A stretch of 64,000 nucleotides of DNA from Branchiostoma floridae (taxonomy: Eukaryota > Chordata > Leptocardii > Amphioxiformes > Branchiostomatidae): assembly GCF_000003815.2 (NCBI RefSeq), contig NC_049988.1:14578803-14642802 (forward strand), given 5' to 3'. A program made the position numbers and the translations under genes. Under the pieces are notes generated by a model. It was given only the letters and a program-made list of their open reading frames with translations, was not told where the DNA came from and did no database searches. Numbering within the stretch: position 1 is the stretch's first letter; every line of letters starts with the position of its first letter. Shown piece after piece: positions 318-63,488 of this stretch.

Positions 318-2374
318 CGTTAAGTCTAATGCCACAGTCTCATTCACTTCACTTACTCCTGGAACACATTCTCCACCCGTGACATTTCCGGAAACAGGTA
401 CAATACTCCCTCCGCCTGAAAAAATGAACAGATCGTCAACAATCGCAAATTAACAAAAACAATAACAGAGACGACAGTAACAACATGGTAATCACAATTT
501 TGTGTTGAAGTCCGAAAGAATTCTGATGTATTCTATTCTGATGTATTCTATTCTATTCTATTCTATTCTATTCTATTCTGATGTATTCTAACGTATTCTA
601 TTCTATTTTGATGTATTCTAATGTATTCTATTCGGATCTATTCTAACGTATTCTATTCTATTCTATTTTATTCTATTCCATTCCATTCTATTCTATTCTG
701 TTCTACTCCTGACCAACGTACCTTCTCCCTGCGCTGGAAGTAGGCTGATTATCCTACACGCAGTGTTTGTGGAACTGTCGCCCTTCTGTCGCCGCAGGTC
801 AACAACTTTCTGTTTGTCAACAAACAACCACAGCTCGTCCCCACCACCAACGGTGATGATCTCGTTCCCAGTGTAAGTGATAGCTACACGGATAGCCAGG
901 GTAAATCTGTGGAATAAAGGGAAGATAACATCAAATCAAATACATTTTTTTGCAAGTCCTCTAAAAATTTACTTTTGTGATTAGGAACGTAACTGCTATG
1001 CTTTGTTGCATGGCATTTTCTTGCACATTTGGTCCGTATGCTAGTGCACTCTATAAAAAGGTACAGTTCGGATGCTAACATACGAATCTTATTGACAGCG
1101 ACACTGTGTGTTGTTGTCATCGTCGCACAGTTGTGTGTAGTATGGAACCATTAATGAGAATGATAAATGCAACATTAAGTTCGATAGTGGAGACACCAAC
1201 CCAAAGTTGTGCAGTACATTGTTGCAGTCCCTCTGTTGTTCAGACCTGTATCCCAGTCCGTCAATCGGAAAGAATCTATCGCTGTAATACCTGGGGATAG
1301 AAATGACGGGGAAAATTGCATCAAGAACCGTGGCACATTCCGTTGGCAGACATATTACATTGGTTGATACGTTTTCCATATCATGCAATGACACTGAGTT
1401 TTTAGTAAGAAGATACTCAATTCTTCCATTAGAAAATTAATGAGATTTAATGAGATTCTACTTCGTTAAATTTCAATAAGAGAATGCTAAATTTTGTTGT
1501 TAGATAGATGACAATAGAAGGGTTCTATACTGTTATGCATGTACGAATCCAATTACAGACCTTTTTAGCTTGATAATGCAATCCAAAAGAAGCAAGTGTA
1601 CCTGTAGGTATCCGTATCATTTTGTTTCTCCAGCGTCAGCGTCGCTTCTCTGACGTAGTTCACGTTAGGGACGGACGCGAACCACTGAGAGATGGAGTCA
1701 GTGGCGGGGTTGTCTGTCAAAACGCGAGAATAGATGCTAATGACAAGACTGAGACACTGAGACATCACGTGTAACGCTAAAAGACGTTCTATATATATCG
1801 ATATGGAAGCACAATTTCTACTTACTTCCAATACAAGTTAGTTGTTAATTGATTGTCCTCTGTCACAAGAAGAATTCGTGTAGAACTCTTCAGTTCATGG
1901 GACCATCTTTGCTTCACAAAGTACAGTACCTTTCGTTTGATATTGTCTTACCATAGAAACCTATCTAAACATGATTTACATAATGTGTTACATTTGCATA
2001 CAATCTTTACATGTTCAACCGTTGTATCTAGTGAGATGTACTTGTATTCAGTTGTTTCTGCCAGTGCATCCTAGTGACATTGAAGAAGAGTGATGGATGT
2101 CACTCAAATCTGTCCGGTAGTTTATCGCCTTGAAATGTATTCGAATATTGTTGTGTAAACTTTTATTTTTTTTCATTCAGGGACATCCCCATAGATTGGT
2201 TATACGTACCCGATAGAGCCAGAAATGCCCCAAACGGACTGTTGACGTAAATGGGATCTCCCAGGTCTCCCTGTCTGGTACCGTCAAAGTCCGGGTGGTT
2301 CACACTGAAGTCATAGTACGTGATGGGCAGGTCAAGGTCGTCCGTTACGTTAGACGCCGTTACATTCACGGAAA
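318..2374 (-). CDS. Gene A exons 43-47: fibro-slime (PA14-like) domain, incomplete
   Basis: Exons 2374-2210, 1713-1602, 1281-1201, 906-722 and 415-318. Signature pieces in order: ITYYDFSVNHPDFDG, SISQWFASVPNVNY, RFFPIDGLGY, NNVLHNFGFTLA, ITVGGGDELWLFVDKQKVVD and GGGSIVPVSG. These match the fibro-slime family (YYDF, HPDF, QWF, FFPLDG, HNFxFT, GDDxWVFI). The last exon ends in phase 0; its partner in gene B (57074-57209) carries GNTYHLDVFVAERE, and no match to that is visible in 1-317. The domain therefore ends outside the window. An intron found in gene B between YYDF and HPDF is absent here. Confidence 0.86.
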
Positions 2375-5300
2375 CTGGACAGGAAGTTCAAGACAGTGTG
2401 TCGTTACGAAACATCTTTCAAAGGGCTTTCATTTCAAGAAACTAATGTTAAGGTAAGAATATGCGGTTTGCAAATGAAGAACTAGCTGCTGCTGCTGATG
2501 ATGATGAAGGTACAATGTAACAATACAAATCATTTTCTTACAATCAGCATGCGCAGTAGATGGGTGGATTAGCGCTATTGGACTTTGTCAAGAGGATTAT
2601 CTTTGGCTCATTGTATCTTATTTCAATAAAGGGAAAAGGTCTGATAGAAATAATACCAGAAAGTAGACATAATTTATTGCTGTGTCTTTACAAGCTTGAA
2701 AACAACACATTCTAGGAACAGCTGCAGGTACCTAAGTCCTCTAAAGTTGTGACTGGCTCTGGCCACCCCACTGCGCTGTAGCTCCCGTTGTCGTTCCGAA
2801 TCACGGTGCAGACATAGTCTGTGCCGGCCCTGACGTCATCTGCAGCGTCGAACACTACTGACGAGTTTGTGACTCCATCAGCGGCGAGGTCCGGAGCATC
2901 GCTGCTGGTGCAGTTCACATCGTAGGTTCTGGAATTGTCGCAAAACGCATGCCAATTTGTTTCCTTTAGTTTTGTTAAAACGTGGTGTAGATGGCCAAAG
3001 CTATAAGGTATTATTGAGGTCAAACAACTCAGTAATTTATCACAGTAGATAAGCGTAGTCAACGGGCTAATTTTCTATCTTGACTTGTGATACTCTTAGA
3101 CTCAAATGCCACAATGGCTTGTCTGATAAGCCCATTCGATCCTCCTTGAATCACATCAGATGCACTACACTTAAGCTTGTTTTTGAGAACGTACATCAGT
3201 ATATTAGAACAAGCTTCAAATTTTTGAAATTCAATGGCAAACTACAGTAAAAGTGCACCCACCCGTAGCTACTGTTGGTTACGATGTCAGTACATCCTGA
3301 TGTATACATGTCGAACCCGGGATGGGAGGGGTACGGGTCGGTAGGGGGCGTCCATGAGACTGTGATCTCATTCTGACCCGAAGCTAGTGCCTGCACATTC
3401 TCCGGTTCTGCAAAGGGCAAATCCGTATCAGTGTTATCAGGTAAAGATTGGAAAACATCGCACAACAATAGTCACTCAATCAACGTAACAGGATATGACA
3501 ACGTAACAGTCAGACTTTTCAGACATGCATCTTCCACTGTCTTTCATCAGTGACACTGAGTAAGATCTGTTGATCAGCAGGTATATCACCAACACATTAG
3601 ATTTTAGATAGTCAATTAGGAAACAAAAATAAGACAAAGTTAATGCAAGGTTAACACTTATTAGATCCTGTTGTATGAAGTCAAGTCACAAATTTGACAA
3701 TATGCAACAAATCAATAAAGACAAAATTGATACTTGATACAAAAAGACAAAACATCTAGGGAATCCCTTACCACAAACGAATGTCTCAGGACACACGGAT
3801 AAGAAGTAGTTACTGCTGGTATTTCTTTGTGAGGAGGCGAAGGACACGCCAGCTGCCTGGGCAGGGGTTCCACATTCACCCCCTGTGAAGGTAGTAAGGT
3901 TCCATAGGTCTGCCATCATAGTCATCATGGAACAGCTGCAGGCTAGAGGGTTCCCACTCAGGTCACTGAAAAAAGATTATGTAACGTTACATTGGTAGTA
4001 TGGTGTGAAAATACGTTTTGTAAGTAAAGATTAGGACTACGTTCGACTGAAATTGGTGATATCTATGTGGCACTATTAAGATGAGTTACTTATAAGTTAC
4101 TAACTTGAGCACAGTGCCACTTTGTCCTCGTCTGTCCAAAAGAAAAATATGAAAAAAATGGGTGATATTCACGATAAGAATAGAAAAAAAACTACTTTTG
4201 TTTTTATAGCAGCCACAACAGCGTTTAATGTCTCATACTTACATATTGAGTCGCGCGTTGTTCTTGATACCATCGAAGACATTGTCTGCTAGGAACTGGA
4301 TTCTGTTGTTGGACAGGTCACTGGAATGTTTTAAAGAGAACATGTTGCGTCATCACATATATTTACCTTACCTTTACCTAGTCCAATGTTCATGTCTGGG
4401 AATTTACAGGGTCGGTGACTTTTGCGGATGGTTGTACAAATTATTCAAACCTAAAAATAGGTATGATATTGGCAGAACGATTTCATAATGTGTCAGGGCT
4501 TACAGTTCTTCAATGTTTGCCAGATTGTCGAAGGTATTGGACTCCACCATTTCAATCAGATTCCCCGACAAATACCTGAAAAATATGATAAAATTGAAAC
4601 ATTTTACATGTACATACAACATGTTGCCATGGTATGATGTTAATGGATTTTATTTCTAGTTTATTTGTTACCAAGATGTGTAGCAAATGTAACGCAATGT
4701 CAAGCATGTGAAATGTGAATGATAAACTCACAGGGTACCAAGCTGCACAAGGGAAGCCAGGAAACCAACTGGTATCTGTTGTAGTCGATTGTTTGCCATG
4801 GATCTAAAGATATGTAAAAAAAAACAACAACACAAAATTTGCAAGTTTGTAAACAATGTAAAAATGTATCATTCTTAATTGAGTAGTTTTCAAATATACA
4901 AATACAAACTTTAAGAGTTTACGTCTAGCCATTAATGTAGGTACTTTTGGGGCACCTATATACAATCAATTTTAATCCATGCTTATTGCATATTGCCATA
5001 CCGGTCGCCTTTAAGACCACTTACATGTAGACTTAAATGTGAACAAATAAAATATCAGACTCACAAGTTCTTGAGACTACCCTGTGTGCTGAGCAGATTC
5101 GAATCCAATGTCAGCAATGCGTTGTTGTCAAGGTTACTGTAAGCAAAAACACGAGACAGAATGAAAGATAAAGTTCAATACATTGCACTCAGTTACCTCA
5201 GTTGATTTTGTTGGTTTTCTGTTTACTTATTGTATAAGATTTGTTGCTTATGTATTGTATTTATTGCTCATGTATTGTAGGACTCCAGGAAGAATAGTGA

Positions 5301-8300
5301 TACTACATTTAGTATCACTAATGGAGATCCAAATAAAACAAATAAAACAAACAAACAAACAAACAGAGTAAGGGAAAGATGATGTGGCATACGTGCTCAA
5401 GTGTAGTTACCATTGTATGAAATCTAGTTAACCTAAATCGTGAATTAGATGAGTAGATACGTGTAAGCGGTCCGATACGTTACAATGGTTTTCGTTATGA
5501 AATATTTTGCGAAATTGGTGTGAAGGAGTACTGACATCAGGGTAAGGGTCACACCGACGAATGCATCAGGATCTATGTAGTAGATCAAGTTGTTTTCTAG
5601 GTGGCTGGAAAAGAACAATACATTTTGTTTCAGTTTGCTTTTTTGTTAGTCATTCAAAAGTAGCAAGGGAAAAATGAATGTCACTGACGTAGACGTAGTA
5701 TGTTTTATGAACTAAATGGAAACAAGCAAATCATACAGAAACACAAAAGACTTACAGGTCCTTGACGACAGACACGTTACTGAAGATTTTCCCCCTTACC
5801 ACCTTAATGGCATTGTTTGATAGATCACTGCCGATCACAGAGAAAGACATGGTAATATGAATATGCAGGTCCAAAGGTTCTGTCTTAAACTTACAAATTT
5901 TAACGCCACCATCGATATAGGACATGATTACACTAGACATAAAAATGGTGAATTGGCCAAGTAGATAGACATAATTGTACTGAATAGGGTTCAAACTAAC
6001 TGTTTTACTAAATGTAAGATCATACTAAGTGACGCTGTCCTTCGTAAGCTGTAAGAACTAAGTACTTTTTAGTAAATTAGAAACATCTAGGTCCTATATC
6101 GAAAAGAAACCTTACAGACTGTTGGTGATCGTTACATCGAAAGCTTCCTCCTCTATTGATGTCAGTTGGGTGTTTGCACTCATTTGCCTGGGAATTCATG
6201 ATAAGATAGCATGGTCATTTTTACATTTCTTTTGTCTGTCACCTTATAATCAGGCCACAACAAGTAAAGTTTATGGATGACATCCTCTACAAAAAACAAG
6301 ATGAGTGAAAAACAAACAATATGGCTATATTTTAGAAATAGACACCATGGACTGTATAACAAGAATGAAGTTTGACATCACAGCCAACAAGGCATTTATT
6401 CCTAAATTCAAGAAGTGCACTATGTTTTTTCATACTGTATAGTAAAAAGATGGCTAGTTACGTTACTCACAGATTGTAGACTGAAACTCTGCTAAACGCA
6501 CGTGGCGGTATCACGGTGAAGTCCATATTATTTAAATACCTGTAAAATAGTGTATATTTTTTTGTCTAAAACATTTGATATTTTCATAAGGTATGCAAAC
6601 AAATTAAACAACACAGTACAATTGCACTCTTATAAAGGTTAGAAATTGTGTAGGAAGATCGTGTAGCAATGTTTAAATATATACCACACAAAATGATAAA
6701 AAATAGATGTTGATATATGGTGTAGTCTTACAGAGTACTGCGGACGGTGACATCATCAAAAGCGTAAGATTCAATACTTGAGACAGGGTTATCTTGGAAG
6801 TAGCTGGAAAAAATTATAAGGGTTTTGTGTGCGTCATTTAAGTGATCAAGTATTGTCTTATATTACAAAATACAATCCATACACCATGTTTTATCGATAT
6901 ATATTGGATTTTTAGGACATTTGAAATATAAGAATATTACATAATTTTTTTACTTACATGTTTCGACTGGAAACCGTGTGGAAAGCGTGTTCCCTTATTG
7001 ACGATATCCTGTTATTCTGCAAGTCCCTGAAAGCAATTTTAGCGTCATGATATCATTATACAATCATCGTTACCGACGACACATCTAAAGAAATCTTTCA
7101 AGCTTCTTGTCATTAATGAAATTGCACGACTGGAGATGTTAGTACTTACAATTCATAATCGACGTTGACTTCATTAAAAGCGTAGGGTGCTATGTCGGTT
7201 ATCGCTCCTCCATCGAGGTACCTGGTCAAGAGGAAATTTATGCAATGAGACAAACAGTCGTCAAATATTAGTTTTTCGTCATAATATGTAAGAATAAGTA
7301 CTTAACATGCCTATACTGTACTCAATGAAAGCTCGGTAAAGGAATGATAATTTCATGTCTAAGGTTCATTACAGAATATATACCACCGTCGGAGAGTCAA
7401 TGAATATACTACTTACAAATATCTGACATGAACATCGTTCAGTACGTAAGAGTTCAGCAACTCAAATTCAGCATTCTTGAAGGACCTGCATAGAAGAAAA
7501 TAGATTGTGTAAATGTTCACGTAGATATCGGGAGTGGAAAAATCGGGTGTCTTTCGGGGCTGATTATTAAGCTCTTATCCATTATCAAATAAGATTAAAG
7601 TCGATTTATACAATAACGCATTCATTTAGAAACTATTTGCTAAAGTACTTACAATGTTCCCGGGTTCGTCACACAGCGTATGACGTTGAAGGCATAGGAG
7701 TCTACAAACTTTGTCGGGTTGTTATCCAGATCGCTGTAAGAACATACAGCAACAAGTATGATATTTTATCATGTATTTTGAATAGTGTTTCTATTCTGTT
7801 TTAGTTTCGTATTTATGATTAGAGAAGAAAGCTTACAAGGACCAAGTCCTGTTGAGATGTAGTATGTGAATAAAAAGACAGTTGTATCAATCCTGCGTTA
7901 CGTATATCATGGTGAGCTGCTGCTCTGATGAAGTAGAACCACAATCGCCCTGACTGTTCTACCCTCTAGAATCCCCCAACATGTTGCCGCAAACTCAGTT
8001 ACAGTAGAAATTGTTTGTACAAAACGGAAATACTCACATCGTTGATGTTGAAACATCGTTGAAGGCGTATCCTTCTATGATGGAAATGGAGTTGCTTTCC
8101 AGATTCCTGTCAGATAACGAAATATATAACATTGATAGTCACAAATGGTTATTAAGTCTGCCCCAAATCGGATGTATTAAGTACAATATGTAGTATGTAC
8201 AACATTGTGTGCTCAAACAGAAAGAGCAATTGATGAGTGACCAATAAAACTATATCTCGAATATCTCCCTAGGCAGCAAAGGGCAGTAAAGATGGGAAGA

Positions 8301-20000: not shown

Positions 20001-20781
20001 ATAGTCTTCGAATTAAATCACTTGATTTAATGCTCATGCACTATCTATCATTCACGATGCAAAAGTATGACACAAAATCGTCCTGTGTCAATGAAATTAC
20101 TTAAGCGATCTGTCAAATGTTTGCTTTTGGTGGCTCAGACTTCTAGCGGAAAAGGAAGCACAGCCCAAGAAATATACAAGAGACACCTGCCAAGAAGTTT
20201 TAGATGTAGACGATAAGGTGACAAAGGCTCTATGTTCAGTCCGTGTTTTGCTTCGGCGTTGAGAACAGAGCATGCACCTCTTTGTTCGACACGTCACACG
20301 GTCATTAGAGCACGGACAGGTGCATGACGATGTTGCTAAGCAACGGAGGGGTGTTAATTGTGCTGTTTGGAAAACAGACGATATCTAGTGTCCCAAACGA
20401 TCTTTTCCACTTTTCTGAGGAAAACGTGACCCCATTTTTGGAACAGCTTCATTTAAGGCTCCTGTAATGAATTTCTAAACCAATACTTGGCGTTTATTTC
20501 AAATCCTGTGCTAGACAAACAGGTTTACAGTTTCAGGTAAAAGATATGGTTATAGACGAAGATTTATGAGATTATTGACAGTTAGCAACACTTGTGTACG
20601 TGAGGTACGTCAGTTCTATGGTGAATAAGTTGTGTACTCTGCACTTATGCACCGACGGGTCGTGACTAGAAACAATAGACTAGCCACAATAAGGAAACAC
20701 TTGCCTACCTCCTTCAAAGTATCTCAAGTTACCGCATATACTTTTCCTTCTCCAAGCATAGGGGGTGGGGGGGGGGGGAGG

Positions 20782-20881
20782 NNNNNNNNNNNNNNNNNNN
20801 NNNNNNNNNNNNNNNNNNNNNNNNNNNNNNNNNNNNNNNNNNNNNNNNNNNNNNNNNNNNNNNNNNNNNNNNNNNNNNNNN
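20782..20881. other. Assembly gap (100 N)
   Basis: Directly follows a G-rich tract in the intergenic region, a likely sequencing stop. Confidence 0.95.
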
Positions 20882-22916: not shown

Positions 22917-23003
22917 AATAGCGAAACCAGCGGGGGTCGAACCTTACACCTAGAAGAAATCTAGCCTAGTAGCCGGGACGTTTACCACTACACCATAGTC
23001 GAG
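22917..23003 (-). repeat. tRNA-like remnant (A and B boxes)
   Basis: On the minus strand, tagtggtaaacg (A box) is followed about 45 bases later by ggttcgacccc (B box), as in a tRNA or tRNA-derived SINE. I could not fold a full acceptor stem, so a working tRNA gene is not claimed. Confidence 0.4.
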
Positions 23004-44808: not shown

Positions 44809-44874
<66 letters not shown>

Positions 44875-47800: not shown

Positions 47801-47912
47801 GGAGCCTTTCGCCTTTAATGACGTCGCAGTCTCCTATAACTTGTGAGAAGGCATATTATCAATCACCTATATTAAGTTAAGCAAATAAATTTGTCTAATG
47901 CATAAAGGAAGT

Positions 47913-48002
<90 letters not shown>

Positions 48003-54000: not shown

Positions 54001-57000
54001 GGGAAAGTGAGATCGACAAACTCGGAACTGTTATTTTTTTAATTCTGCAATACGTTTTCCCTTTTTCACTAGATACTATCTAGTCACCTGCACAAGTGAA
54101 ACAGCGCCAACGATCAGCAGAGGCCTTATTGTTACCAACTTCACCATGTTCAACGCATCTGACGGAGTCCAGGCAGGAACTACTTACACATGCGCAGTGC
54201 TGTACAACCAGCTGGGTGACTTCAGCGCATCCAGCTGGCCAGTTACGGTCACTACATTGCAGGAAACAGGTAACGTTATAACATAGAAGAACTTTATTTC
54301 ACGACAATTGTACATGATACAATGTATGGCAACAACTATTACACAAAGTACAAAATAGAGGTATAGGATAAAGCGTAACAACCTAGTTAACATAACAATA
54401 AGGGATAACATAATTCTTTGATATAGTATTATATTACAATGGAGTAGGCTAATCATCAGTTTCGGTATTCTTTCTAATAGCAGAGCAGTCCTTGATGTAT
54501 TTGCCAATTTTTGTATTATGGAAGTTCTGACATCTAAAGATATGTATAAATCTGTTTGTAGCATCGAGTCTCTTGAAATCTGTTGTACTTGATTCGAGAA
54601 ATATGAATAATTCATTACGTAACCTAGCGTATCTAAAAATATTCTATTATAAAGTGAAATTCATGTTCAATATATGAGTGTACATTGTGCGCCAATGTTG
54701 AACGATCATGATTGGAGGGATTTCTCATGATTTGTTTGTCGTTTGACGACAGTGAATAAGAAGTGTTAGAGACACAAACGGGCTTCTGGGATATATGTTT
54801 AAGTTTACAATATTTTTTTTTGTCATTTTCTACAGAGGACATTGACGAGAACAGCATGCAGGTTCCGATCAGTTACTATGATTTCAGGTTGGTATTACGT
54901 CTAGATCTATTACTTCGAAATACGTGATTCAATCTAGAATAGAAACTGAAAACGTTACCATGATACTGAAATAAATCAAGAAACCTAGAATGTTCTGGAG
55001 GTATCTATGGTATAACGTGTTGTTATCGGCAGGTACCGTGCTGTATGTTGTCACCCATGAAAAATGGACGTAAATGATATTGTAAATGATGTTTGATGTA
55101 GATGTTGACATAGTTAATTTTTGTAACAAATAGCTACCTAATATACGTACATGATTGATGGGCCTCTTAATACATATTTCATCTTTCATTAAACCAGCAT
55201 CACCCATCCGGACTTCGACGGTCGACGGCAAGGAGAGTTGTTAGATCCAACTTACATGGTCAACCCATTTGGGGGATATCTGTCTACATCAGGTGCATAT
55301 TATTGTCATTGTCATCAAACCATTCTAAGCATTGTTGAAAAGAATAAGCTCCGTACAGAAATTACTTCTTGGAAAAATTATTCGTGGCAAACAAATGCTA
55401 GATAGTAGCAAGTACCGTACATTATTCCCAATATTTCTTTATCGTAGATGACCCAACGCTGGATCCTATCGCGCGATGGTTTGTGTCTGTTCCCGGTGAC
55501 AACTTTGCTCGAGAGGAGACGCTGGTTCTGACGCAACAAAATGGCACCGACGTATACAGGTCATCATCATTCGTCAATTGTTACTACATTGTCATATACT
55601 TTTAGCATCCTGTATTTTATGCATTTTCATAATTATATGTCATTTTTTAAAGATTGACTTGGGTTAAAAAGGATGCATCCTGAAAAGACCCATGTACATT
55701 GTGTAACGAAACTGAAATAGGTGCATGAATCTTGGAACCAGCTGTGTCTGTAATGCATGCACCACATGTGTTTACAGATTCTACGATAAAGATTTCTTCC
55801 CCGTGGATGGATTTGGTTATGGCTTTGAGGGACAGCGCGATTGCAATAACACTCTGCACAATTTCGGGTAAGTGTAGTCATTCCTTCCTTGATATGTTGA
55901 CAAAATCCTTCCCTCAGATGGTACACAGATAGTACACAGAGTGGCGCCTATCCCCATTTCAATAGCCCTTGGGCTAAGCAACTTTGTGTAATCACTTCAG
56001 CAAGGTGGCTAGTCCACCGGTAGTGGTGTGTGTGTTCAACTACCATAGTTTACTCTTTCCTAAATGCTGAGTGCTGTGCAGCACAGAGAACGCATTATGT
56101 GTCATTTTAAAAGTCTTTGGTACGATTTGACTGGGGATCAAACTCACGACCTACTTGAAAGCAAGGCGAACACTTTGCCATTGTACAGGTGTTTAAGTCT
56201 TGACACGTTAAACATGTTCATGCAACATTCGTGTTTTCTCATCACCAATTATATGTTCAATGGAGGGCATTAGATGGCAGAAAATGTTCCGCAATGGATG
56301 TACTGTGGTGATGACTTTCAGCAAAGATGAGATACAGCAAAGTTTTAATCCAATTGGCTTTGATTTCCAGTTTGACAATTGAGATGTAATTGTTGTGATC
56401 TTTTCAGTTTCACGGCAGCTGTTAGAGCAGCACTAACCTACACTGGGAACGAGATCATCACCGTGGGTGGTGGGGACGAGCTCTGGCTCTTCGTTGACAG
56501 AAAGAGAGTGATCGACCTGCGCAGAGAAAAGGGAGACAAATCAGAAATAACTTCGTGCAGAAGGCTAACTTTACAGGGTTCTCGAAGCGAAGGTAAGTAT
56601 GAAAATTGCCATGAAGCTTATTAGTAACAAGGCTAAAGGGTTCCAGCTCATATATCTGTGTTTTTATTAATGCAAACTCATACACTTTATCGTTGTGATG
56701 ATTTTGAACTTATTGACGTATTACCATTCAATATATGCAGGGGGAACCGTCATTGATGGGGAATGCGTGATTCACGGAAACGCAACCGACGACACCGTGG
56801 AACTGGAACTAACGGTAATTCTGACAGAGATAGAATCCTATCTTATCTTGCATGTCGATTTTGAAAGAAAAAACTAGCCACTTTCTTTTTGCAAAAATGT
56901 GCCTACCTTACCTTAGCATTATCTAAACAGGATATTGGTATTCTATTTTACATAATCGGTAATATGTCTCACTTACTTCCGTTTCGATTTCATAACTATA

Positions 57001-60000
57001 TGTGTAAAAGAAAACTACAATATCCTATGTTCTACTAACATGATGAAATTATTTTCGGGCATAATACAAATAGGTTGGAAACACCTACCACCTTGACGTA
57101 TTTGTGGCGGAACGAGAACCGTGTGCATCTTCACTTTTTCTTGAAGTCGAGGATGTGGTTCTCTCCTTCCCAGTGGTCGACATTTCGGCAGACAATGTCA
57201 GCAGTTTCGGTGAGTTCAAATGATGAAGTAGACAGTCATCATTCAAAATCTGTGTATATGCAAAGAACCTAATACCTGTGACAGTCGTTTGAAGTAAAGA
57301 TGTCTTAGCAAGATTTACACGAAATAACATTTTGGTAGAGAACCGAGATACGTCAATTCAACTATTTCTTTTGTCAATTCATTTTCAGCCACAGGGGCAC
57401 CAAATATTTTCAACAGTACCAATGATTCCCTAGCAGCAACGACTGAAGAACTGAGCAACACAAGTATGCAAAGTAAAATTTCATGTCTATGGCAATGTTT
57501 AGATTGCGCAGTATAATACATTCATAAGCTATATATCCAGACGTATCTATGAAGGAACAAACCTAAGAATACTCGTAGGTATGCTGTATTTCTTTCTGGT
57601 GGAATTATACACACAAGGAAACAAATATCTACCGGCTGTTCCTTGTTTTCTTGATTATGCACTATGTACTTCTTAGATTTGAAATTATTTAACACGAGAA
57701 AAGTGGCTTACGTTTGTGAAGATTAGACATCNNNNNNNNNNNNNNNNNNNNNNNNNNNNNNNNNNNNNNNNNNNNNNNNNNNNNNNNNNNNNNNNNNNNN
57801 NNNNNNNNNNNNNNNNNNNNNNNNNNNNNNNTTATCCAGAAGAAGAGATTGAACCATCATCTATTTAGAAAAGTGGCTGTGCGAGATACTTGTAGATATA
57901 TTGTTCAACTATCCTCATCCAACATTTCGAATGATAACTTCATTCAAGAGGAGCCGCCAAAGAGTGTTGTTTTTCTGTGACCTGTACATGTGTGAAATAC
58001 ATAGATATGCTGAAAATATCTGGACAAATGTATGACTATACATTATTTACATATCTTATAGCCACGTTGCCGACATTGACACCAGAGACAGCCACATCGA
58101 CAGAACCACCATACAGCACAGTGAACCACACAGAGGCGGCGAACAACATAGGAAATCACACAGAGGCAATGAACACTACGACCAACTACACAGAAACAAC
58201 AGAGCCGCCTGTAACCAGTAACCGTACAGCACAACAGAATATAAGTACTACCATGTCCAGCGCTGAACCAATGGACCGCCCTGCCGGGTTTCCCGTCGAC
58301 TATGAGCCAAGAATTCAGGAGGATCTTCACCAAAACGGAATAGTACAGATCGTCTCCCTCGCTAGCGTGGCGTCAACTGACAGTTTATTCACCATTACCA
58401 TCTTAGAAGGTAATTTATAGCCACTATCACAATTTTTCTTCACTTGATCATCATCGTAATGTGAAAATAGGAATATAATGTATTTTTTCGGTAAATCTGC
58501 CAAAACTCAACTCAACAGCTTCAAATTTCCGTATGGTTGCGTTTGCATTCCGCCAAACTTATAATCTAAATCATTTTTGGATAAACGTTTATGCAGTGTA
58601 ATCTCCAAGCAGATTCCCGGTGGCATAAGATAGTACCAAAGCTGGCAAAGGAGTGTAGCCGGCCAGAGGAGGTCTGCTGCCTCCCGCCTCCGGTGCCCGT
58701 CTAACTCTCCTTGGCCGACTATACTCCTTGGCCAGCTTTGATACTATCATATGGTACCGTAGGATCTGCTTGGAAATTATATGTAGTTCCTTTCATGTTT
58801 TCTTCTCTACCCAAGGCAGCGACGGTGGCCACTTCACAATTAAGAATGACACTGACGAAAACCGAGCAGATGCAGAAGACATACCGACACAGAATGTTAC
58901 CTGGGTAACTGTAGATGGGACCTCGTTCGTCGTTTGTAACCAGACAGTTTTGGAAACAACATCAGAAGCAGTGGGGATGGGTGAGGATTTTTTTGCAATT
59001 CTCATTATATTGTTGTATAATCTATAGAAATCTGATGACAGATTAAGAATATCTATCTGTTTGCATACTCATATCTATTTCTATCTCATATCGACATAAA
59101 GATGATTTTTATGACGATGATGATGAAGACGAGAGTACATTTTCCGTGTCTCTGGTTTCCTGTTAAGGGTTTCTAACATGTACATCGAAACCATTATGTG
59201 GCCTCTTCGTAATTAACCAGCTATGTCAGAGAAAACTATGTGGATGGTATCTTCAGCTAAATAAAACGTTGTTTTTCGTTTTTGTCTCAGACGTGCAGAC
59301 GTTTGTGATCACCACACGGTCGGCCCTCATCACCCTTGCAGCTGATGTAGACTATGAGGACGTTCAGCAGTATGAACTGGTGCTCGTAGTGGAGGACAAC
59401 AGCGCGGCTCCCGCGCGGACAGGGACGTTGGCCATAGAGGTTTGCACCACAAGAAAACCATACTATTAAACGCACATAATATTTTAAAATAATGAATGGA
59501 ACTAAGTGATTTTGATCAAAATACATTATATACTATATCATGTTTCTTTGATCCATTTTGCTATTGACATGGAACGTTGTGCAGATTATCAGAGAAAAGT
59601 TGTAATAAATCGTAATGATCTGAAGCATATACAAACAATGTGTCTTAAAAACGTCGATGGTGGTTACACATCCAGGTAATACGAAACGCCAATAAGCAGT
59701 TACTCAAGCAACTAGATATGATTTTGGAAACGGTCAGACGTTTCAGGTAGCATCCTCTATTATATTGCACATTCGGCGTTATTGACGAAAGATAGTGGAT
59801 GTTATTTGAAACGTCTGACCGTTCCCAAAATCATATCCAGTTGCTTGAGTAACTGCATATTGGCGTTTCGTATTACCTGGATGTGTAACCTCCATCGACG
59901 TTTTTATGACACATTGTTTGCAAATGCTTCGGCTTACAACTTTTCTCTGATAATCTTCGTTGTCTTTTTGGCGATGTGTCATGATAGCAGATGAATCCAA

Positions 60001-63000
60001 GAAGTTGCTCCCCAAACAAACGTTTGTTTTTTCTTGAAAGATATTTGTGGAAGACGTGAACGACAACTGTCCAAGTTTCACCACTAAGGAGTTCGACGTT
60101 GAGCCCAAACCAGTGTTGAGTCCAGGCCCAGTCTTCACCCTTCAGTGGGTGGACAGGGACAGCAGACCAAACGCCATCGTCTCGATCTACAGAACTCAGG
60201 AGGTTCAACAGACGTAAGAAGTTCAATCTGTTTACCGCATCCTGCCTATACGACCTTCGTAATATCGCAACTGTTTCCTTCCTTTAGTGACCAACAGGGC
60301 ATAAAGGGATTGTCAACATGTGTTGCAATTAAATATTTGTATTTTTATCTATTGAAAATTACAATAAAATCTTAGGCGGCTTGTGCTGGTGTCGGCTGAC
60401 CCACAAAGATGCAAGCATACAAAGCTAATTTACATATATCCACAAGTAAAGGCATAAGAATATACATTATACACAACATGCATGATGCAATGTAAAATAA
60501 TTGTGATCACTAATGAGCATACGTACAGTGAAATGATGGAATAGGTGGAAGGTCGTTAGTTGTGGATAATCTAAAATGTGGACAAGGGACATGCCTTGAA
60601 CTGTCGGAGTGTGGGATTATCTTTTGTGTCTGGGTAGGTGTTTTAGAATGTAAAGTTATATTCATATTTCAGGTACCTCCACCAGCTGCAGTTTTCTGTA
60701 ATTGCCGTTGACTCGGGCACACCACCACGTGGGGACATAGCAACCGTTTCCATGACAATCAGTGACACATGCCTGTACGACAGCTTGAACAAGTCCATTG
60801 AATATGACGTCAGCGTCGAGAACCATACCGGGAACGTTTACATCCGGGTTCCAAAGTACTACGTCAAGACGTTTGGTGAGTAGTTCGAAGACATTCCTCT
60901 TTGCAAATTTCCATACATAAAAATACATCAAAACACACAAGGCGTAAAATTGCTAGTTTGTTCCTCGATTATGAACTTTGATGGCTCCTTTAAATCACAC
61001 GGTCATAGTGATGAAACAATGTACCACAGCTTCAGTGAAATACCATAAGAAGCTAACTCGAGCTTTAAAGACCTTCAAAGATTGCATTTTTTTTTCAACA
61101 GTATGCTTTGAGCCACTTGGTATGGAAAGCGGATGGATACATATAAGTCAGATCTCTGCGTCGTCCGCGGATGAATTTTATGGACCTGATCGCTCCCGTC
61201 TCAACAACAATGCATCTATAGCCAGTGACGGCGGGACGCATGCCGCAAGGGGGAACTGGAGGGCGGCAGTAACCGACGCCGAGCAATGGCTACAGGTGAG
61301 AGAGGTGTTCTACTACGTTATGCTAAAAGTAGTATCTCACTGCACTTGGGGCACTTGGGCGGCACTGTTGTGTTATTTCCACCGGTATAACAATGTTATT
61401 GGGAAATACCATCACAACATGATTTGAAACGAAGAAATTATGTGAAACGAAACACATTAGTCCTCAAGTAGAATACAATTATTGTACTATCTTTCTCCAA
61501 CGCAGGTATCATTCCTCGAAGAGGTCGTCATTAAGGCAGTGGTGGTGCAGGGAAGTTTCGATGCCCAGGAGTGGGTGCAGACATACATTCTTCTCTACAG
61601 CAACGACAGCATCAACTGGCAAACCTACAAGGAAAATGGAACTGTAAAGGTACGTACATATCTGGTCAAACTTGTTGACAATCTTCATCGGTGCGTCCAA
61701 GCTTAGAAAAATTTTCATTACAACTTAGATGGATGTTAAACAAAGTCTACAGTTTAAATATTAAGGCATTCATGCATCACAAATACCACACCTTTAAACT
61801 TACGAGTCTCCGAAAGATTAATGCATCACAAATACTAAGCCTTTGAAAGTTAGAGTGTCAGAAAGAATTCCCCCTTAATATTCCATTCAGCTTTTCAACG
61901 GAAGCTCTGATGCCTCCACTCCACAACAAGAAGTCCTGCTTGACCCAATCACCACATCTCATATCCGTATCAATCCGCAATCATGGCGTAACCGCATCAG
62001 CATGAGGATCGAACTGATTGGCTGTACCGTGAGAATGCAACACATTCGTAAGTCCGGTTATAATCATGACTTTGCTTTGAAGAATAGCAGAATGACCACC
62101 AAAATGTTTGAGGCCGTAATTGGTATTGGTTTAGTACGAACAACTTACAAGTCATTTACCAACCCAATGAAACTACTCACCTATGCGTCGATTAAGGCTG
62201 GACATCCAATTAGCAATTAGCACTTACTCAAAAAGCTGGATATGATTTAAGAAACGGTCAGACATTTTAGATAGCATCTACCAGGTACCTATCCAAAACT
62301 TTTCAGTGATTCTGATCAGGTCTGCTATTATGTAAAGGTGTTAAAAATAATTTATTTACCTATGTCTACACATCATATACAGGCTAATAACAATGTATAT
62401 ATGTAAATATGCTATAAGTGGCAATTTTCTTCGCATAATTGCAACCTTTTTAGGTGAGACAGCCTGCGCGCGCTGTCCAACAGCGTACTACTGCACGGGG
62501 GATGGAGTGGCCAGGCCTTGCGGGCGGTGCGACCCACCCTCGGCGGCCTGTGAGCGCTCACCCACCGAGCATTCGTTTGGAGGAGCGTCGGAGTGTAGCC
62601 CTTGCCCAATTGGTCGGGTTAGTAGAGATCTGATAACAGTCTCCGTATCTAGACGCTCTCAAAGCGGTTTCATTTAAAATATATATCGTTGTATATGTTT
62701 TTTCAAGCAAAACATATTAGTCTTTATTCAATTTGTTGCAACCTACATAATGTAGAGACTTAGATAGATAATGCTTGAAACATTAAATCTACAAACTCCA
62801 AAATCACATCAAGTTAAACTCTATATCACAACAATGTCAATGGATACAATGTATCACAATTTACTAAGAAGTTCTATAAAGCAAGACTATCGTCTATACA
62901 TATGCAAAAGGATACAAAAATTAACCTGATATAAAATAATCAAAATACACAAGAGACATGATGGGGATGTTATGTTCTGTATTATCTTGCAGATCTGTAA

Positions 63001-63488
63001 AGATGGCTACGGACATGTTTGCCGCAGGTACCATTATGCCGAGCCTTGCAACGAAACGGTGAGCCATGTATTCTCCTACGCCACTATATGTATCTATAGG
63101 TGATTATAGTTGGTTATATTTGGTTTGGGCCACCATCCATGTAACAAGTGGTATGGTCCACTAGTGGGTACGTCACGGGTGACGTAGTGCCTTTGACTCC
63201 TCCGTGATTGTTGTCAACATGTTGTGTTCCTTGAATTGCGCCTACTGTCGTCCTAAGTTGACACTGCAAGCGTTCCATTATGGCGCTATGCTACCTATAC
63301 CTCTACATGTTCATCTACATCTTTATCAATTCTGTCGTTTTAGGTGCGATGAACAGTGCCTATTGTGACTCTTGCGTTCTATTTACAGCATTGTCCAGAC
63401 AGTTGCACGCCTTGTGAACCCGGTTATGCCTGCTTCTTTGGCCGGAGGTACCAGTGTAGACCAGGTTTCTACGGTACTGGCCGTATGG
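26876..63488 (+). CDS. Gene B: giant LRR-FN3-fibro-slime-cadherin-discoidin ectodomain protein
   Basis: Sixty-seven coding exons on the plus strand join in one frame of about 2396 residues. Domains by residue: signal peptide, aromatic segment and cysteine cap (1-107); 43 LRR exons (108-1192); LRR C-terminal cap (to 1253); FN3 with a sequon-rich loop (to 1502); fibro-slime (to 1750); Thr/Asn-rich stalk (to about 1860); two cadherin repeats (to 2121); F5/8 type C (to 2286); cysteine-rich GCC2/GCC3-like segment (to 2396). An in-frame TGA lies at 26867-26869, just before the chosen ATG. The true 3' end is unresolved (see 63815-63846). A gap at 57732-57831 lies between two phase-1 junctions, so a whole exon could be missing there without a frame change. 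No transmembrane span was found. Function is unknown; extracellular adhesion or recognition is inferred. Confidence 0.88.
27098..27160. repeat. Short relative of the G/C-tract foldback
   Basis: Has ccccctttcc, then gcgatcgcgctacgctct and tggaaatggcc, in the order and spacing of a contracted copy of the 28783-28970 repeat. Confidence 0.4.
27664..27888. mobile_element. Foldback (MITE-like) element, CTCCAAGCAGAG termini
   Basis: Two arms of about 100 bases are inverted copies: gtatacgttactctccaagc at the left and its complement at the right, sharing also the cttctattttg-type inner arm. It lies in gene B intron 1 and is directly followed by an assembly gap at 27896, which the hairpin may have caused. 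Confidence 0.75.
27896..27995. other. Assembly gap (100 N)
   Basis: Begins eight bases after a foldback element in gene B intron 1. Confidence 0.95.
28783..28970. repeat. G/C-tract foldback
   Basis: A run of 14 C then tccactttc at the left, and gtggaaag followed by a run of G at the right, form inverted ends of a segment of about 190 bases. Near the left end sits gacggcgatctcgctgcgct. A similar piece, agcgatcgcgctacgctct, occurs at about 27118-27140 beside ccccctttcc. Both are in gene B intron 1. Confidence 0.55.
28971..29780 (+). other. Distal part of gene B intron 1
   Basis: No repeat termini, exon or simple repeat were recognised between the G-tract foldback and exon 2. Confidence 0.4.
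30364..42532 (+). CDS. Gene B exons 3-23: first part of LRR array
   Basis: Exons: 30364-30432, 30636-30707, 31065-31130, 31244-31321, 32270-32338, 32732-32803, 33123-33200, 33362-33433, 33643-33714, 33883-33954, 34402-34479, 34753-34830, 35082-35216, 36943-37014, 37489-37566, 38147-38224, 41200-41271, 41738-41809, 41947-42018, 42113-42178, 42386-42532. All have phase-2 borders. Exons 3-18 pair one to one with gene A exons 3-18; for example LFISSNSFTTFPHPAFSEED matches LFISSNKLTSFPHPAFSEED. Exons 15 (135 nt) and 23 (147 nt, NKYFDFRHDNPF) are the double-length ones. Exons 19-21 stand opposite the single gene A exon 19. Exon 19 uses a weak donor (GTTCGT) and follows a LINE insertion. Confidence 0.86.
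31375..31810 (-). pseudogene. LINE C-terminal fossil in gene B intron
   Basis: On the minus strand a broken frame reads VVLDRIQRRICMASGN, LDPLYLRRNVASLSLFYRYF and HGYCSNDL. After a frame change come NSFFPRTAKLWNSL-like residues. These are the conserved C-terminal motifs of many non-LTR retrotransposons (LDxIQRR, RRxVASLSLFYRYxHGxCS, FPRTxxLWNSLP). No catalytic reverse-transcriptase motif is present and the frame is disrupted, so it is an old, 5'-truncated copy, antisense to gene B. Confidence 0.72.
35746..36814. mobile_element. Modular terminal-inverted-repeat element, about 1.07 kb
   Basis: Starts with acctccatgaaa and ends with tttcatggaggt, a perfect 12-base inverted terminus. Inside are about three diverged units near 290 bases, each with an attaattatgcaaat box, a gttatcctct box and an acaaaaatgcccctg box, then a partial fourth. 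A CA microsatellite (about 36725-36762) lies next to the right end. There is no coding capacity. It is a non-autonomous element in gene B intron 15. Confidence 0.7.
38335..38504. repeat. TTAATTCA array, left copy flanking the LINE
   Basis: Begins gtgttcattctttaattc, continues as attaattc units and includes a distinctive taaaccattaattc variant near its end. The same starting and ending variants occur in the copy on the other side of the LINE, so the two arrays are one duplicated sequence. Confidence 0.85.
38505..40983 (-). mobile_element. 5'-truncated LINE inserted in gene B intron 18
   Basis: A non-LTR retrotransposon antisense to gene B between exons 18 and 19. The 5' end lacks endonuclease and the start of the reverse transcriptase and abuts a CATA repeat. 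The 3' part, about 540 bases after the stop, ends at the AATTAATG-type repeat. Both flanks carry the same repeat array (see the two repeat entries). The long open frame suggests a fairly recent insertion. Clade not assigned. Confidence 0.8.
39044..40984 (-). CDS. Non-LTR retrotransposon reverse transcriptase (646 residues, N-truncated)
   Basis: The first nine residues come from CATA-repeat flank; homology starts near GGKALWSRM. Reverse-transcriptase motifs in order: FKKGIKIPLLKQGK, HRGITLLNV, a degenerate NGGQVGCNNTTTAYIV, FLDTTKAYDTVW (motif A Asp), GVNQGGVLSL (motif B), ALADDICLLA (motif C with LADD instead of F/YADD) and FAPEKSKCVVF. Near the C-terminus CPACD and KHMLKEC form a C-x2-C-x9-H-x4-C zinc knuckle. 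No stop interrupts the frame, but without an endonuclease it cannot be an autonomous element. It is unrelated to the host gene and on the opposite strand. Confidence 0.86.
   Translation of the reverse strand: MYVCMYGGKALWSRMTALFNAMRELEYIPMEFKKGIKIPLLKQGKTNKADFNSHRGITLLNVMMKIWEKVLYNRWKPWLLSKGLPHELQNGGQVGCNNTTTAYIVREVLTHYQERGSLVYGCFLDTTKAYDTVWIPGLLYKMFKVGVNGKMWRLIKLMHTENCYSVKLNGEKSREFITTRGVNQGGVLSLTCYLISTNDVHEILQAQGGGASVGGLNCCSPALADDICLLAGSRSALKKLIDTMYIYGTKWRFQFAPEKSKCVVFGQKSGGRPTGSSVGDWRMGNTAIPEVATVTHVGVQHSANLTSAAATESATKKGKGKTCAILATGLEGRKPNPLVTRKLYYTIVIPSTLHGCEFWQPSNTDMQKLEQCHRFAAKKMQDMHFQTETTATLAALGMPSLRAIIDKYKLRLFGRLTQLPNNVLAKKIFLYRLYSFLLRRERGISSKGFISDCSTIAQEYVLSEYLEQFGVTLEFPANRWKHIVKAAVGEKEEGKWNDKISGSTTRFQKTHTTMLQPHKLWMLARKKPAYRSDLQKLIHLSTAPRTQKACPACDNPTDDLVKHMLKECRTFQTVREELTDHLTDFLGIRVAVEVHQQGDERLTEVLLGAHIVEENIETEHWEEFILLVARKLRPLAIMALKHITWK
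40994..41190. repeat. TTAATTCA array, right copy, followed by ATTC array
   Basis: From 40994 to about 41126 it repeats the left array with the same start and the same taaacc variant, but about 35 bases shorter. It then passes into a pure ATTC tetranucleotide array that ends ten bases before the acceptor of gene B exon 19. Confidence 0.85.
42845..43090. mobile_element. Foldback element in gene B intron 23
   Basis: Outer arms agttacaacag and ttcttcaatcaatgact occur inverted at the right end. Inner arms carry gatgtctaccagcacat and gaatgacctagtctcag, also inverted. The centre is only about 40 bases. No coding sequence. Confidence 0.8.
43329..49408 (+). CDS. Gene B exons 24-38: duplicated LRR block
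   Basis: Exons: 43329-43400, 43642-43716, 44114-44188, 45106-45177, 45510-45578, 45952-46023, 46439-46507, 46881-46952, 47429-47497, 47771-47842, 48050-48118, 48306-48377, 48722-48790, 48994-49065, 49340-49408. From exon 27 on, lengths alternate strictly 72, 69, 72, 69 and so on over six pairs. The 72-nt type often reads LYNNPVT followed by AFN (exons 33, 35, 37); the 69-nt type reads MYS or IYN, then AFN or TFNDV and a terminal RNL or ETL (exons 34, 36, 38). This points to duplication of a two-exon unit. Exons 24-26 pair with gene A exons 22-24 (LGWLKK with LGWIRK). Gene A has 11 exons in this block against 15 here. Confidence 0.86.
43726..43800. repeat. Terminal fragment of the acctccatgaaa element
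   Basis: Just after the donor of gene B exon 25, the sequence cacctccatgaaa repeats the terminus of the element at 35746-36814, followed by unrelated sequence. It is probably a solo end of the same family. Confidence 0.45.
44189..45105 (+). other. Long intron 26 of gene B
   Basis: Holds a T-rich start with gtttattcaacatcaaag, possibly a LINE 3' end, a run of attgattgatt, and the AT palindrome listed separately. No exon was found. Confidence 0.45.
44800..44880. repeat. AT microsatellite inside a short palindrome
   Basis: About 55 bases of AT, flanked by agactattata at the left and tataatagtct at the right, so the whole forms one hairpin. Gene B intron 26. Confidence 0.8.
46620..46690. repeat. 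Interspersed repeat, copy 1
   Basis: Contains tacaatgtatgtcaacaact and a following attacaaag-like stretch shared with 54305-54370. Gene B intron 30. Confidence 0.4.
47095..47195. repeat. GC-rich insert in gene B intron 31
   Basis: A sharply GC-rich island (agcccgacggcgggtagga, gacccgcggggcggc) in an AT-rich intron. It looks like an inserted interspersed element, but no relative is in the window and no termini were found. Confidence 0.35.
47919..47998. repeat. GA microsatellite
   Basis: About 78 bases of pure GA, a polypurine tract in gene B intron 33 starting about 80 bases after the donor. Confidence 0.95.
49574..52349 (+). CDS. Gene B exons 39-45: last LRRs
   Basis: Exons: 49574-49666, 49849-49920, 51119-51187, 51528-51599, 51795-51866, 52049-52114, 52275-52349, all with phase-2 borders. 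They pair with gene A exons 33-39: NLTAIAEEAF with QLTSIEEEAF, LSNCAIRVIVGKMF with LSNNAIKVVRGKIF, and SKNEIEFVEENAF with SNNRIQFLADNVF. This part of the array did not change copy number between the paralogues. The 1.2-kb intron after exon 40 is much longer than its 150-base counterpart in gene A, and I recognise nothing in it. Confidence 0.86.
49921..51118 (+). other. Long intron 40 of gene B
   Basis: About 1.2 kb against about 150 bases at the matching position in gene A. No open frame with a domain, no inverted termini and no simple repeat were found. It is probably an eroded insertion. Confidence 0.5.
52510..52720. repeat. SINE-like interspersed repeat, copy 1
   Basis: Contains agtccaccggtagt, then ttccatactctt, then cattttaagagtctttgg. 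The same boxes in the same order occur at 55945-56185. It lies directly upstream of gene B exon 46. Confidence 0.5.
52835..53016 (+). CDS. Gene B exon 46: LRR C-terminal cysteine cap
   Basis: The 182-nt exon runs from phase 2 to phase 1. It reads YLTGNPLACSCSF, then GGSCSTPEQ and a final DFLC, the cysteine layout of an LRRCT cap and the direct match of gene A exon 40. It is followed by the FN3 exon. Confidence 0.87.
53223..54269 (+). CDS. Gene B exons 47-48: FN3 domain with sequon-rich insertion
   Basis: Exon 47 (53223-53772, phase 1 to 2) starts as a normal FN3 (APTNVHAVAESNREISVSW). It then runs into about 145 residues dominated by Asn, Thr and Ser, with roughly 34 N-x-S/T sequons counting overlapping ones. 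The core is a repeat of about 30 nt encoding NNTTSFNVTA or NNTTSFNETA. Exon 48 (54073-54269, 197 nt as in gene A) resumes the domain with YYLVTCTSE, AGTTYTCAVLYNQ and VTVTTLQET. The insertion sits in the loop between the two halves of the domain; gene A has only about 20 residues there. If glycosylated it would form a bristle on the FN3 surface. Confidence 0.86.
53330..53755 (+). repeat. Coding minisatellite encoding N-glycosylation sequons
   Basis: Inside gene B exon 47. The best-conserved part (about 53420-53590) consists of units near 30 nt built on aacaatacaacaagtttcaa plus a short tail. One unit carries a 3-nt insertion that keeps the frame. The flanks are degenerate versions of the same Asn/Thr-rich coding pattern. 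Confidence 0.85.
54305..54370. repeat. Interspersed repeat, copy 2
   Basis: tacaatgtatggcaacaact and downstream aagtacaaa match the copy at 46.6 kb. The following 250 bases may belong to the same element but no end was found. Gene B intron 48. Confidence 0.4.
54836..57209 (+). CDS. Gene B exons 49-55: fibro-slime (PA14-like) domain
   Basis: Exons 54836-54887, 55198-55292, 55448-55559, 55778-55867, 56408-56592, 56741-56814 and 57074-57209. Motifs in order: ISYYDF, ITHPDFDG, IARWFVSVPGDNF, DFFPVDGFGYG, NNTLHNFGFTA, ITVGGGDELWLFVDRKRVID, GGTVIDGEC and GNTYHLDVFVAERE. This is a complete fibro-slime domain of about 248 residues with its closing F/D-x-F-x-AER motif. Known members include Dictyostelium and Fibrobacter surface proteins, and the fold is related to PA14 carbohydrate-binding modules. 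Ligand binding here is inferred only. The first intron, between YYDF and HPDF, is absent in gene A. Confidence 0.88.
55945..56185. repeat. SINE-like interspersed repeat, copy 2
   Basis: Shares agtccaccggtagt and cattttaaaagtctttgg with the copy at 52.5 kb. At its right side, the minus strand reads like a tRNA B box (gagtttgatcccc) and, 30 bases upstream, an A-box-like tggcaaagtgttcgcc. This suggests a tRNA-derived SINE in gene B intron 52. Confidence 0.5.
57389..58409 (+). CDS. Gene B exons 56-57: Thr/Asn-rich stalk and start of first cadherin repeat
   Basis: Exon 56 (57389-57463) and exon 57 (58062-58409), both phase 1 at both ends. They encode TATSTEPPYSTVNHTEAAN and similar Thr-, Glu-, Pro- and Asn-rich sequence with repeated NHTEA, NYTET and NRT sequons, as in a mucin-like spacer. 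The last 50 residues of exon 57 (GFPVDYEPRIQEDLHQNGIV) look like the opening strand of a cadherin repeat. A 100-base assembly gap lies between the two exons. Confidence 0.78.
57732..57831. other. Assembly gap (100 N) in gene B
   Basis: Lies between exons 56 and 57. Both neighbouring junctions are phase 1, so one or more symmetric stalk exons could be hidden without altering the frame. Confidence 0.95.
58600..58778. mobile_element. Foldback (MITE-like) element with TCCAAGCAGAT termini
   Basis: The arms of about 70 bases are inverted: tctccaagcagat at the left and atctgcttggaaa at the right, with aaagctggc...ggagt shared inside. The terminal core matches that of the 27664-27888 element. It lies just upstream of gene B exon 58. 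Confidence 0.75.
58816..60875 (+). CDS. Gene B exons 58-61: two cadherin repeats
   Basis: Exons 58816-58980, 59291-59439, 60041-60213 and 60673-60875. The first repeat ends with ADVDYEDVQQYELVLVVEDN and VEDVNDNCPSF, the classical LDYE and DxNDNxPxF calcium-binding signatures. The second has WVDRDS, VIAVDSGTPPRGD (A-x-D-x-G) and ends without a further DxND motif at ISDTC, followed by about 35 residues (KYYVKTF) before the next domain. The first repeat begins in exon 57. Cadherin repeats between a fibro-slime and a discoidin domain are an unusual order. Confidence 0.84.
59584..59955. mobile_element. Large foldback element in gene B intron 59
   Basis: Arms of about 165 bases are near-perfect inverted copies, from gattatcagagaaaagttg through ggttacacatccaggtaat to aaacggtcagacgtttca, around a loop of about 50 bases. 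The element ends about 85 bases before the acceptor of exon 60. Confidence 0.85.
61102..62047 (+). CDS. Gene B exons 62-64: F5/8 type C (discoidin) domain
   Basis: Exons 61102-61295 (phase 1 to 0), 61506-61649 (phase 0 to 0) and 61891-62047 (phase 0 to 1). The domain opens with CFEPLGMESGWIHISQISAS and continues with NWRAAVTDAEQWLQVSF, WVQTYILLYSNDSINWQTY, HIRINPQSW and RIELIGC. Opening and closing Cys, LGMESG, the W-L-Q-V strand and the Y-S-N-D turn are all family hallmarks. Known members bind phospholipid, glycans or proteins extracellularly. Confidence 0.9.
61330..61385. repeat. Shortened relative of the 25.4-kb foldback
   Basis: Contains gtatctcactgcact, gcggcactg and ttgtgttattt in the same order as the left arm of the 25413-25664 element. 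It lies in gene B intron 62. Confidence 0.55.
62219..62285. repeat. Half-copy of the 59.6-kb foldback arm
   Basis: The stretch with ggatatgatttaagaaacgg and tcagacattttagatagcat matches the inner arm and loop edge of the foldback at 59584-59955, at lower identity. It is a fragment of the same family. Confidence 0.6.
62454..63488 (+). CDS. Gene B exons 65-67: GCC2/GCC3-like cysteine-rich segment
   Basis: Exons 62454-62617, 62993-63058 and 63389-63488. Cysteine-dense sequence (CARCPTAYYCTGDGVARPCG, ECSPCPIG, CTPCEPGYACFFGRRYQC, PGFYGTGRM) fits the GCC2/GCC3 or ephrin-receptor-like family, with CxxCPxGxYC and PGFYG signatures. The last junction is phase 1, and the segment seems to break off in mid-pattern, so more exons are expected. 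Confidence 0.8.

Follow-up and report, generated by a model that had tools for sequence, protein, structure and literature searches.

Mega-thrombospondins (mega-TSPs), described by Shoemark et al. 2019 (PMC6526912), are secreted proteins of the matrix and of very large size, and the available text of that paper gives as their hallmarks N-terminal leucine-rich repeats (LRRs), a central cadherin and a C-terminal thrombospondin region. Their range, according to the same text, extends from ctenophores to basal chordates, with none reported from craniates or ecdysozoans. In Hydra, where the mega-TSP is expressed mainly in the ectoderm, silencing it prevents regeneration of the head but not of the foot; for the Nematostella protein, cDNA sequencing of the complete reading frame is reported (PMC6526912). 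Mega-TSPs are further described there as having no coiled coil, as forming a clade of their own in a TSP_C tree, and as lacking the calcium-binding DDD motif of the first ConA-like domain, which reads GID in Hydra and GTD in Nematostella; both proteins have IGD, and their RGD site reads PVG or VGD. For Branchiostoma floridae, Table 1A of this paper lists BfMT1 (XP_002595073, 1,931 aa) and BfMT2 (XP_002595072, 2,095 aa), both without their N-terminus. A literature search for "mega-thrombospondin" or "mega-TSP" found PMC6526912 alone, and a search on amphioxus thrombospondins with discoidin gave, by title, nothing on this subject.

Here we compare with these proteins a pair of genes in a 64,000-nucleotide stretch of the B. 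floridae genome, hereafter the window (C10:14578803-14642802; assembly of 513,431,437 bases in 431 contigs), to which 50 kb of flank was added per side. A previous sequence-only reading had seen here a divergent paralogue pair about 9.9 kb apart, and indeed genes A (minus strand) and B (plus strand) are divergent, with 9,871 bp between the two ATGs. We are highly confident that they are two old head-to-head paralogues encoding mega-TSPs, very probably BfMT1 and BfMT2 themselves. Positions 318 and 63488 are exact exon ends, yet these limits are set by the window and are not gene ends. Gene A was traced leftward on genomic DNA to a stop codon at window coordinate -17328 (contig position C10:14561474), and gene B runs rightward to a stop codon at 75865 (C10:14654667).

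The gene models, built from translation of the window and a small splice-aware predictor written for this analysis, comprise 80 exons and 2,988 aa for A and 88 exons and 3,305 aa for B; the joined models contain no internal stop and end at homologous places. All 79 donors in A and 87 in B are GT and every acceptor is AG. On a generic matrix 68/79 and 75/87 donors score above 0 (11/79 and 12/87 at or below 0), as do 74 acceptors in A and 81 in B. These exon joins are predictions from DNA alone: for at least a dozen exons, placing or trimming was aided by the paralogue or the expected frame, and eight exons skipped by the predictor were added, mostly guided by the paralogue. B exons 1 and 2 and one further B LRR exon were also added. 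Exon ends and frames were adjusted in places, several of the cysteine-rich and EGF exons being re-bounded or re-read in a different frame, and predictor output past both stop codons was excluded. Predicted exons that were dropped or replaced are 4105-4131, 1826-1859, -4575..-4537, -13854..-13764, -13682..-13574 and -14588..-14502 in A, and 28814-28854, 50591-50617, 67467-67506, 67614-67684 and 63757-63834 in B. The region between the two ATGs is a candidate bidirectional regulatory region. Rfam and tRNA searches of the window returned no match. Five N runs lie in the window (12775-12874, 20782-20881, 23336-23757, 27896-27995 and 57732-57831), the first of them just upstream of A LRR exon 12640-12726, which is irregular and has no counterpart in the B model.

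Table 1. Features of genes A and B, in window coordinates.
Feature	Position	Strand	Basis and remarks
Gene A, in-window part	318..17004	-	47/80 modelled coding exons; splice-aware prediction, paralogue comparison, spliced frame
Gene B, in-window part	26876..63488	+	66/88 modelled coding exons; splice-aware prediction, paralogue comparison
Inter-ATG region	17005..26875	.	Two assembly gaps: 20782-20881, 23336-23757
A exon 1	16845-17004	-	Initiator ATG, hydrophobic signal-peptide-like stretch, by eye
B exon 1	26876-27044	+	Initiator ATG, hydrophobic signal-peptide-like stretch, by eye
A LRRNT-like exon (CxxCxC)	16381..16528	-	By eye; aligns with B 29781-29934
B LRRNT-like exon (CxxCxC)	29781..29934	+	By eye
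A LRR array	4243..15777	-	37 exons, phase 2-2; Pfam LRR_8 E 2.1e-97
B LRR array	30364..52349	+	42 exons; Pfam LRR_8 E 1.2e-103, scored on a model without exon 41200-41271
A LRRCT-like exon	3772..3965	-	By eye; 47.6% identity to B 52835-53016, 63 aligned columns
B LRRCT-like exon	52835..53016	+	By eye
A FN3-like region	2732..3407	-	Two exons; Pfam fn3 E 0.014, 16.1 bits, cut-off 25
B FN3-like region	53223..54269	+	No Pfam fn3 match at E<=10
197-nt exon pair	A 2732-2928, B 54073-54269	A -, B +	Equal length
A fibro-slime/PA14-like region	318..2374	-	Remainder outside window, to coordinate -300
112-nt exon pair	A 1602-1713, B 55448-55559	A -, B +	Equal length
185-nt exon pair	A 722-906, B 56408-56592	A -, B +	Equal length
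B fibro-slime/PA14-like region	54836..57209	+	TIGR02148 E 1.9e-11, 44.3 bits, cut-off 45
B Thr/Ser/Asn-rich linker	57389..58409	+	A largely without it
B cadherin-like region	58816..60875	+	Pfam Cadherin E 8.9e-07, 29.7 bits, cut-off 28.8
B F5/8 type C (discoidin)	61102..62023	+	Pfam E 1.3e-20
B growth-factor-receptor-like cysteine-rich segment	62454..63488	+	By eye, cut by window edge

Both predicted proteins follow one module order: a signal-like start, LRRNT, about 40 LRRs, LRRCT, an FN3-like and a fibro-slime/PA14-like region, cadherin, F5/8C, a cysteine-rich segment, EGF, TSP type-3 repeats, TSP_C, a second ConA-like domain and a short basic tail. No trans-membrane segment was seen by eye after the start of either protein. 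The sequence-only reading had proposed the order LRR, LRRCT, FN3, fibro-slime; the LRRs and the fibro-slime region (TIGR02148 at cut-off) bear this out, while FN3 is weak and LRRCT is an assignment by eye. Similarly, the Pfam search that it had suggested for the predicted proteins found LRR_8, Cadherin, F5/8C and TSP_C, with fn3 and PA14 remaining sub-threshold. The roughly 1,000 aa of tandem N-terminal LRRs that characterise mega-TSPs are present in both genes, as judged from LRR_8 and the LRR exon counts, and nearly all of these exons measure 66-93 nt in phase 2-2, with two longer ones per gene. In A, for example, 35/37 are 66-87 nt long and hold one repeat each, and the other two measure 141 and 147 nt. 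B LRR exon 41200-41271 has a weak donor. An intron of B contains a reverse transcriptase open reading frame of 657 aa (39044-41017, minus strand; RVT_1 E 1.4e-20), which probably belongs to a LINE-type element and is bracketed by arrays of one 8-bp tandem repeat (38299-38504 and 41000-41190), the right-hand array stopping about 10 bp before that LRR exon.

In the centre of the proteins, the FN3 assignment is sub-threshold in A and without a Pfam match in B. The B exon at 53223-53772 carries an NxT-rich insert, absent from A, made by a 30-nt coding minisatellite (53416-53616) that may be length-variable, and has 34 N-glycosylation sequons in 182 residues. The fibro-slime region scores at the TIGR02148 cut-off in both genes, with about half of the profile covered (A: E 9.3e-12, 45.2 bits against a cut-off of 45, and 30.5 bits with other flanks), and PA14 is sub-threshold (A E 0.0056, B E 0.0045; 16.9 and 17.2 bits, cut-off 24). 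We would hazard a guess that this region corresponds to the PA14 of Hydra mega-TSP. A search of the genome with the TIGR02148 profile gave nothing at E<=0.001, probably owing to the spread of the domain across exons. A protein query did recover these exons: the B fibro-slime region matched the 513 Mb assembly 10 times at E<=0.01, each time within A or B, in an exon-wise search with the B query only that a distant third copy could escape. As the matches of this query are confined to these two genes and the accessions of BfMT1 and BfMT2 are consecutive, A and B are very probably these two entries. The B region gave no match to PDB sequences at E<=1, and the literature on "fibro-slime" deals, by title, mostly with Fibrobacter or with gut and environmental degraders.

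It had been claimed that a cadherin, an F5/8C and a GCC2/GCC3-like segment occur only in B. In fact all three are present in gene A, immediately beyond the left edge of the window (Pfam Cadherin E 6.5e-10, 39.7 bits, cut-off 28.8; F5_F8 E 3.2e-22), and the apparent difference in modules arises from the window edge cutting gene A. Both genes thus have, by Pfam, the one or more central cadherin domains of mega-TSPs, as well as the discoidin (F5/8C) domain described as a bilaterian addition. The end of the last F5/8C exon of B was set by the reading frame at a weak donor (62023); a stronger donor lies at 62028, but its use would disrupt the frame unless the model lacks a small exon. As to the cysteine-rich segment, the GCC2/GCC3-like label came from cysteine spacing by eye and was not borne out, with no Pfam model, GCC2/GCC3 (ephrin-receptor-like) included, matching at E<=0.1 in B or at E<=0.05 in A.

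Beyond the window, A continues through cadherin, F5/8C, the cysteine-rich segment, EGF, seven type-3 repeat stretches, TSP_C and Laminin_G_3 to its stop. The EGF, TSP type-3 and TSP_C succession of mega-TSPs is present in both genes above Pfam cut-offs, with TSP_C at E 2.3e-76 in A and 1.3e-74 in B and TSP_3 at E 1.3e-57 and 9.5e-52 (seven stretches each). Likewise, both have a second ConA-like domain after TSP_C (Laminin_G_3 E 2.6e-21 in A, 1.4e-21 in B) followed by a nonconserved tail, as mega-TSPs do; sub-threshold Pfam matches at these C-terminal ends, such as ConA-like cross-matches, were disregarded. The tails are short and basic (RRRRRR in A, KKRRRR in B) and might, by conjecture, be heparin-binding or protease sites. 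Against PDB sequences the B thrombospondin region matched COMP (3fby, E 6.1e-132), TSP-2 (1yo8, 5.7e-123) and TSP-1 (1ux6, 4.6e-89). No Pfam match to a sushi or TSP type-1 domain was found in the scanned stretches of A and B. Between -13574 and -14049 in A, transcript-upstream of exon -14269..-14097, lie three tandem copies of a TSP_C exon cut down to its 5′ part, in repeats 81-87% alike; they keep the open frame, lack the second half, and look like decayed duplicates, or possibly alternative exons.

The DDD motif of the first ConA-like domain, which mega-TSPs lack and canonical thrombospondins carry in TSP_C, is replaced by GND in both genes, the motif being placed by eye with the sequence and the COMP alignment as guides. 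In both genes the type-3 repeats keep IGD (..DGIGDACD..) and VGD (..HVGDACE..). A search of the genome for TSP_C gave 42 exon matches at 13 places, and at the 12 where the DDD exon was read (a place on contig C155 was left out) A and B have GND and the other 10 DDD. Two of these loci, C1:23.16M and C2:15.94M, look canonical by eye. Eight places, on C1, C4, C10 (0.37 and 0.63 Mb), C19 (two) and C180 (two), share an exon reading DDDF[VM]GFVFSYQ[SR]NSR, unlike the two canonical-looking loci, and may represent a TSP-like family expanded in lancelets; the one place read further, at C1:20.3M, has EGFs and a long stretch without assignment in addition to TSP3 and TSP_C.

These data bear on what else A and B might be. 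The sequence-only reading had put forward an undescribed adhesion or recognition family, and its outline of a giant, probably secreted, modular adhesion-type protein stands; "undescribed" does not, the architecture having been described for mega-TSPs in the available text of PMC6526912, an outcome that the reading itself had named as refuting its proposal. The giant LRR ectodomain, the cadherin and discoidin modules and the sub-threshold PA14 would all suit an undescribed adhesion or innate recognition family, and the literature searched held no publication combining fibro-slime with a leucine-rich repeat, but the TSP3/TSP_C end and its published mega-TSP setting speak against such a family, as does a fibro-slime region that, queried from B, matches only two loci, unlike an expanded immune-receptor family; we regard this reading as very unlikely. 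The case illustrates that a known family may seem new when the window cuts its genes short.

Canonical thrombospondins with extra N-terminal domains would account for the strong COMP and TSP matches, but not for the absent DDD, the second ConA-like domain or the LRR, cadherin and discoidin modules, and a tree of TSP_C (64 columns, unrooted, same-genome loci only) separates A and B from the 10 other loci with 100/100 support, leaving this reading extremely unlikely. That prediction has instead fused adjacent LRR, adhesion and thrombospondin genes is a concern where joins come from DNA alone, over many introns and some weak donors; it is nonetheless highly unlikely, given one open frame with consistent phases through 80 and 88 exons, stops at homologous places, and a module order common to both paralogues and to the published mega-TSPs, of which the Nematostella one was cDNA-sequenced (PMC6526912, available text). 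The mega-TSP identity of both genes is preferred.

As paralogues, the A and B proteins share 56% identity across 2,909 aligned residues, and exon-by-exon tblastn pairs most of their exons in order across the window. Alignment column and phase are shared with a B intron by 75/79 A introns (87 introns in B); 2,000 shifted controls gave 0.8 on average and never more than 8. The count is biased towards agreement in that the paralogue guided the placing of some exon ends. Exons bounded by shared introns are equal in length in 48 of 66 pairs (87-exon B model), and the 197-, 112- and 185-nt exons whose identical lengths had been noticed earlier are real matches. The inverted duplication of a whole gene that was inferred from these lengths is supported by both intron sharing and exon length, and a whole-gene duplication, now inverted, is a sound reading of the compared sequences.

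One EGF exon departs from this divergence. Between A -9243..-9094 and B 66218-66367 the 150-nt alignment is 99.3% identical while the flanking introns are unalignable, and 16/16 fourfold-degenerate sites are identical, as compared to 233/644 elsewhere with two candidate tracts excluded (binomial p 8.6e-8, uncorrected for having picked the top exon out of 80). When 149 nt of this exon was searched as DNA against the assembly, the two matches were A and B. The pattern suggests gene conversion between the inverted copies as the simplest reading, though the near-identity may instead be an assembly fault. A second candidate tract, of 97 nt and 96.9% identity, lies in a TSP_C exon (A -14719..-14815, B 72287-72383) with 17/21 fourfold sites alike; conversion and constraint cannot be cleanly told apart here, because a neighbouring TSP_C exon without such a tract (-13229..-13039) has 15/20 alike, and codon constraint may add to A-B identity outside the converted exon. 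Conversion on a small scale has probably transferred single exons from one gene to the other. On balance we lean towards an old inverted duplication whose copies have stayed in contact through conversion of exon size, in which the 150-nt EGF exon, and perhaps the 97-nt TSP_C stretch, would have been copied recently amid near-saturated synonymous sites, homogenising part of the calcium-binding stalk as the LRR halves drift apart. In the literature searched we found nothing on thrombospondin gene conversion in Branchiostoma.

Functionally, the A and B proteins would be secreted and act as multivalent extracellular linkers, the LRR solenoid and adhesive modules binding partners and glycans and the calcium-loaded EGF/TSP3/TSP_C end binding cells, possibly integrins via IGD/VGD. 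With GND in place of DDD, the DDD-dependent route that retains canonical thrombospondins in the matrix would presumably not serve for them. If Hydra mega-TSP is a guide, the most likely role would be in matrix-dependent morphogenesis or tissue renewal.

The family itself is thus known, and what is new here comprises the complete predicted N-termini, the head-to-head layout and one EGF exon of near-identical sequence. Like A and B, the mega-TSPs in the available text of PMC6526912 have about 1,000 aa of LRRs, a centre with cadherin and discoidin modules, EGF, TSP3, two ConA-like domains and a variable tail; their signal peptide, FN3 and cysteine-rich modules compare with a signal-peptide-like stretch and a cysteine-rich segment seen by eye and an FN3-like region in A and B. 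They too have lost DDD and kept IGD/VGD, and two genes are given for B. floridae. That text names PA14 for Hydra alone, whereas A and B have a central fibro-slime/PA14-like match, and we found in it no mention of a head-to-head layout or of gene conversion. The published BfMT1 and BfMT2 entries are N-terminally partial, whereas A and B are predicted complete, and B carries in addition the NxT minisatellite insert; a lancelet pair with complete predicted N-termini helps to ask what the vertebrate matrix lost. The sushi-TSPs and poriferan-TSPs of the same paper have the TSP_C region in common with A and B, and differ in the sushi and TSP type-1 domains that found no match here. Finally, canonical thrombospondins (TSP-1, TSP-2 and COMP) share the EGF, TSP3 and TSP_C end, whereas A and B add LRR, cadherin, discoidin and a second ConA-like domain and have no DDD.
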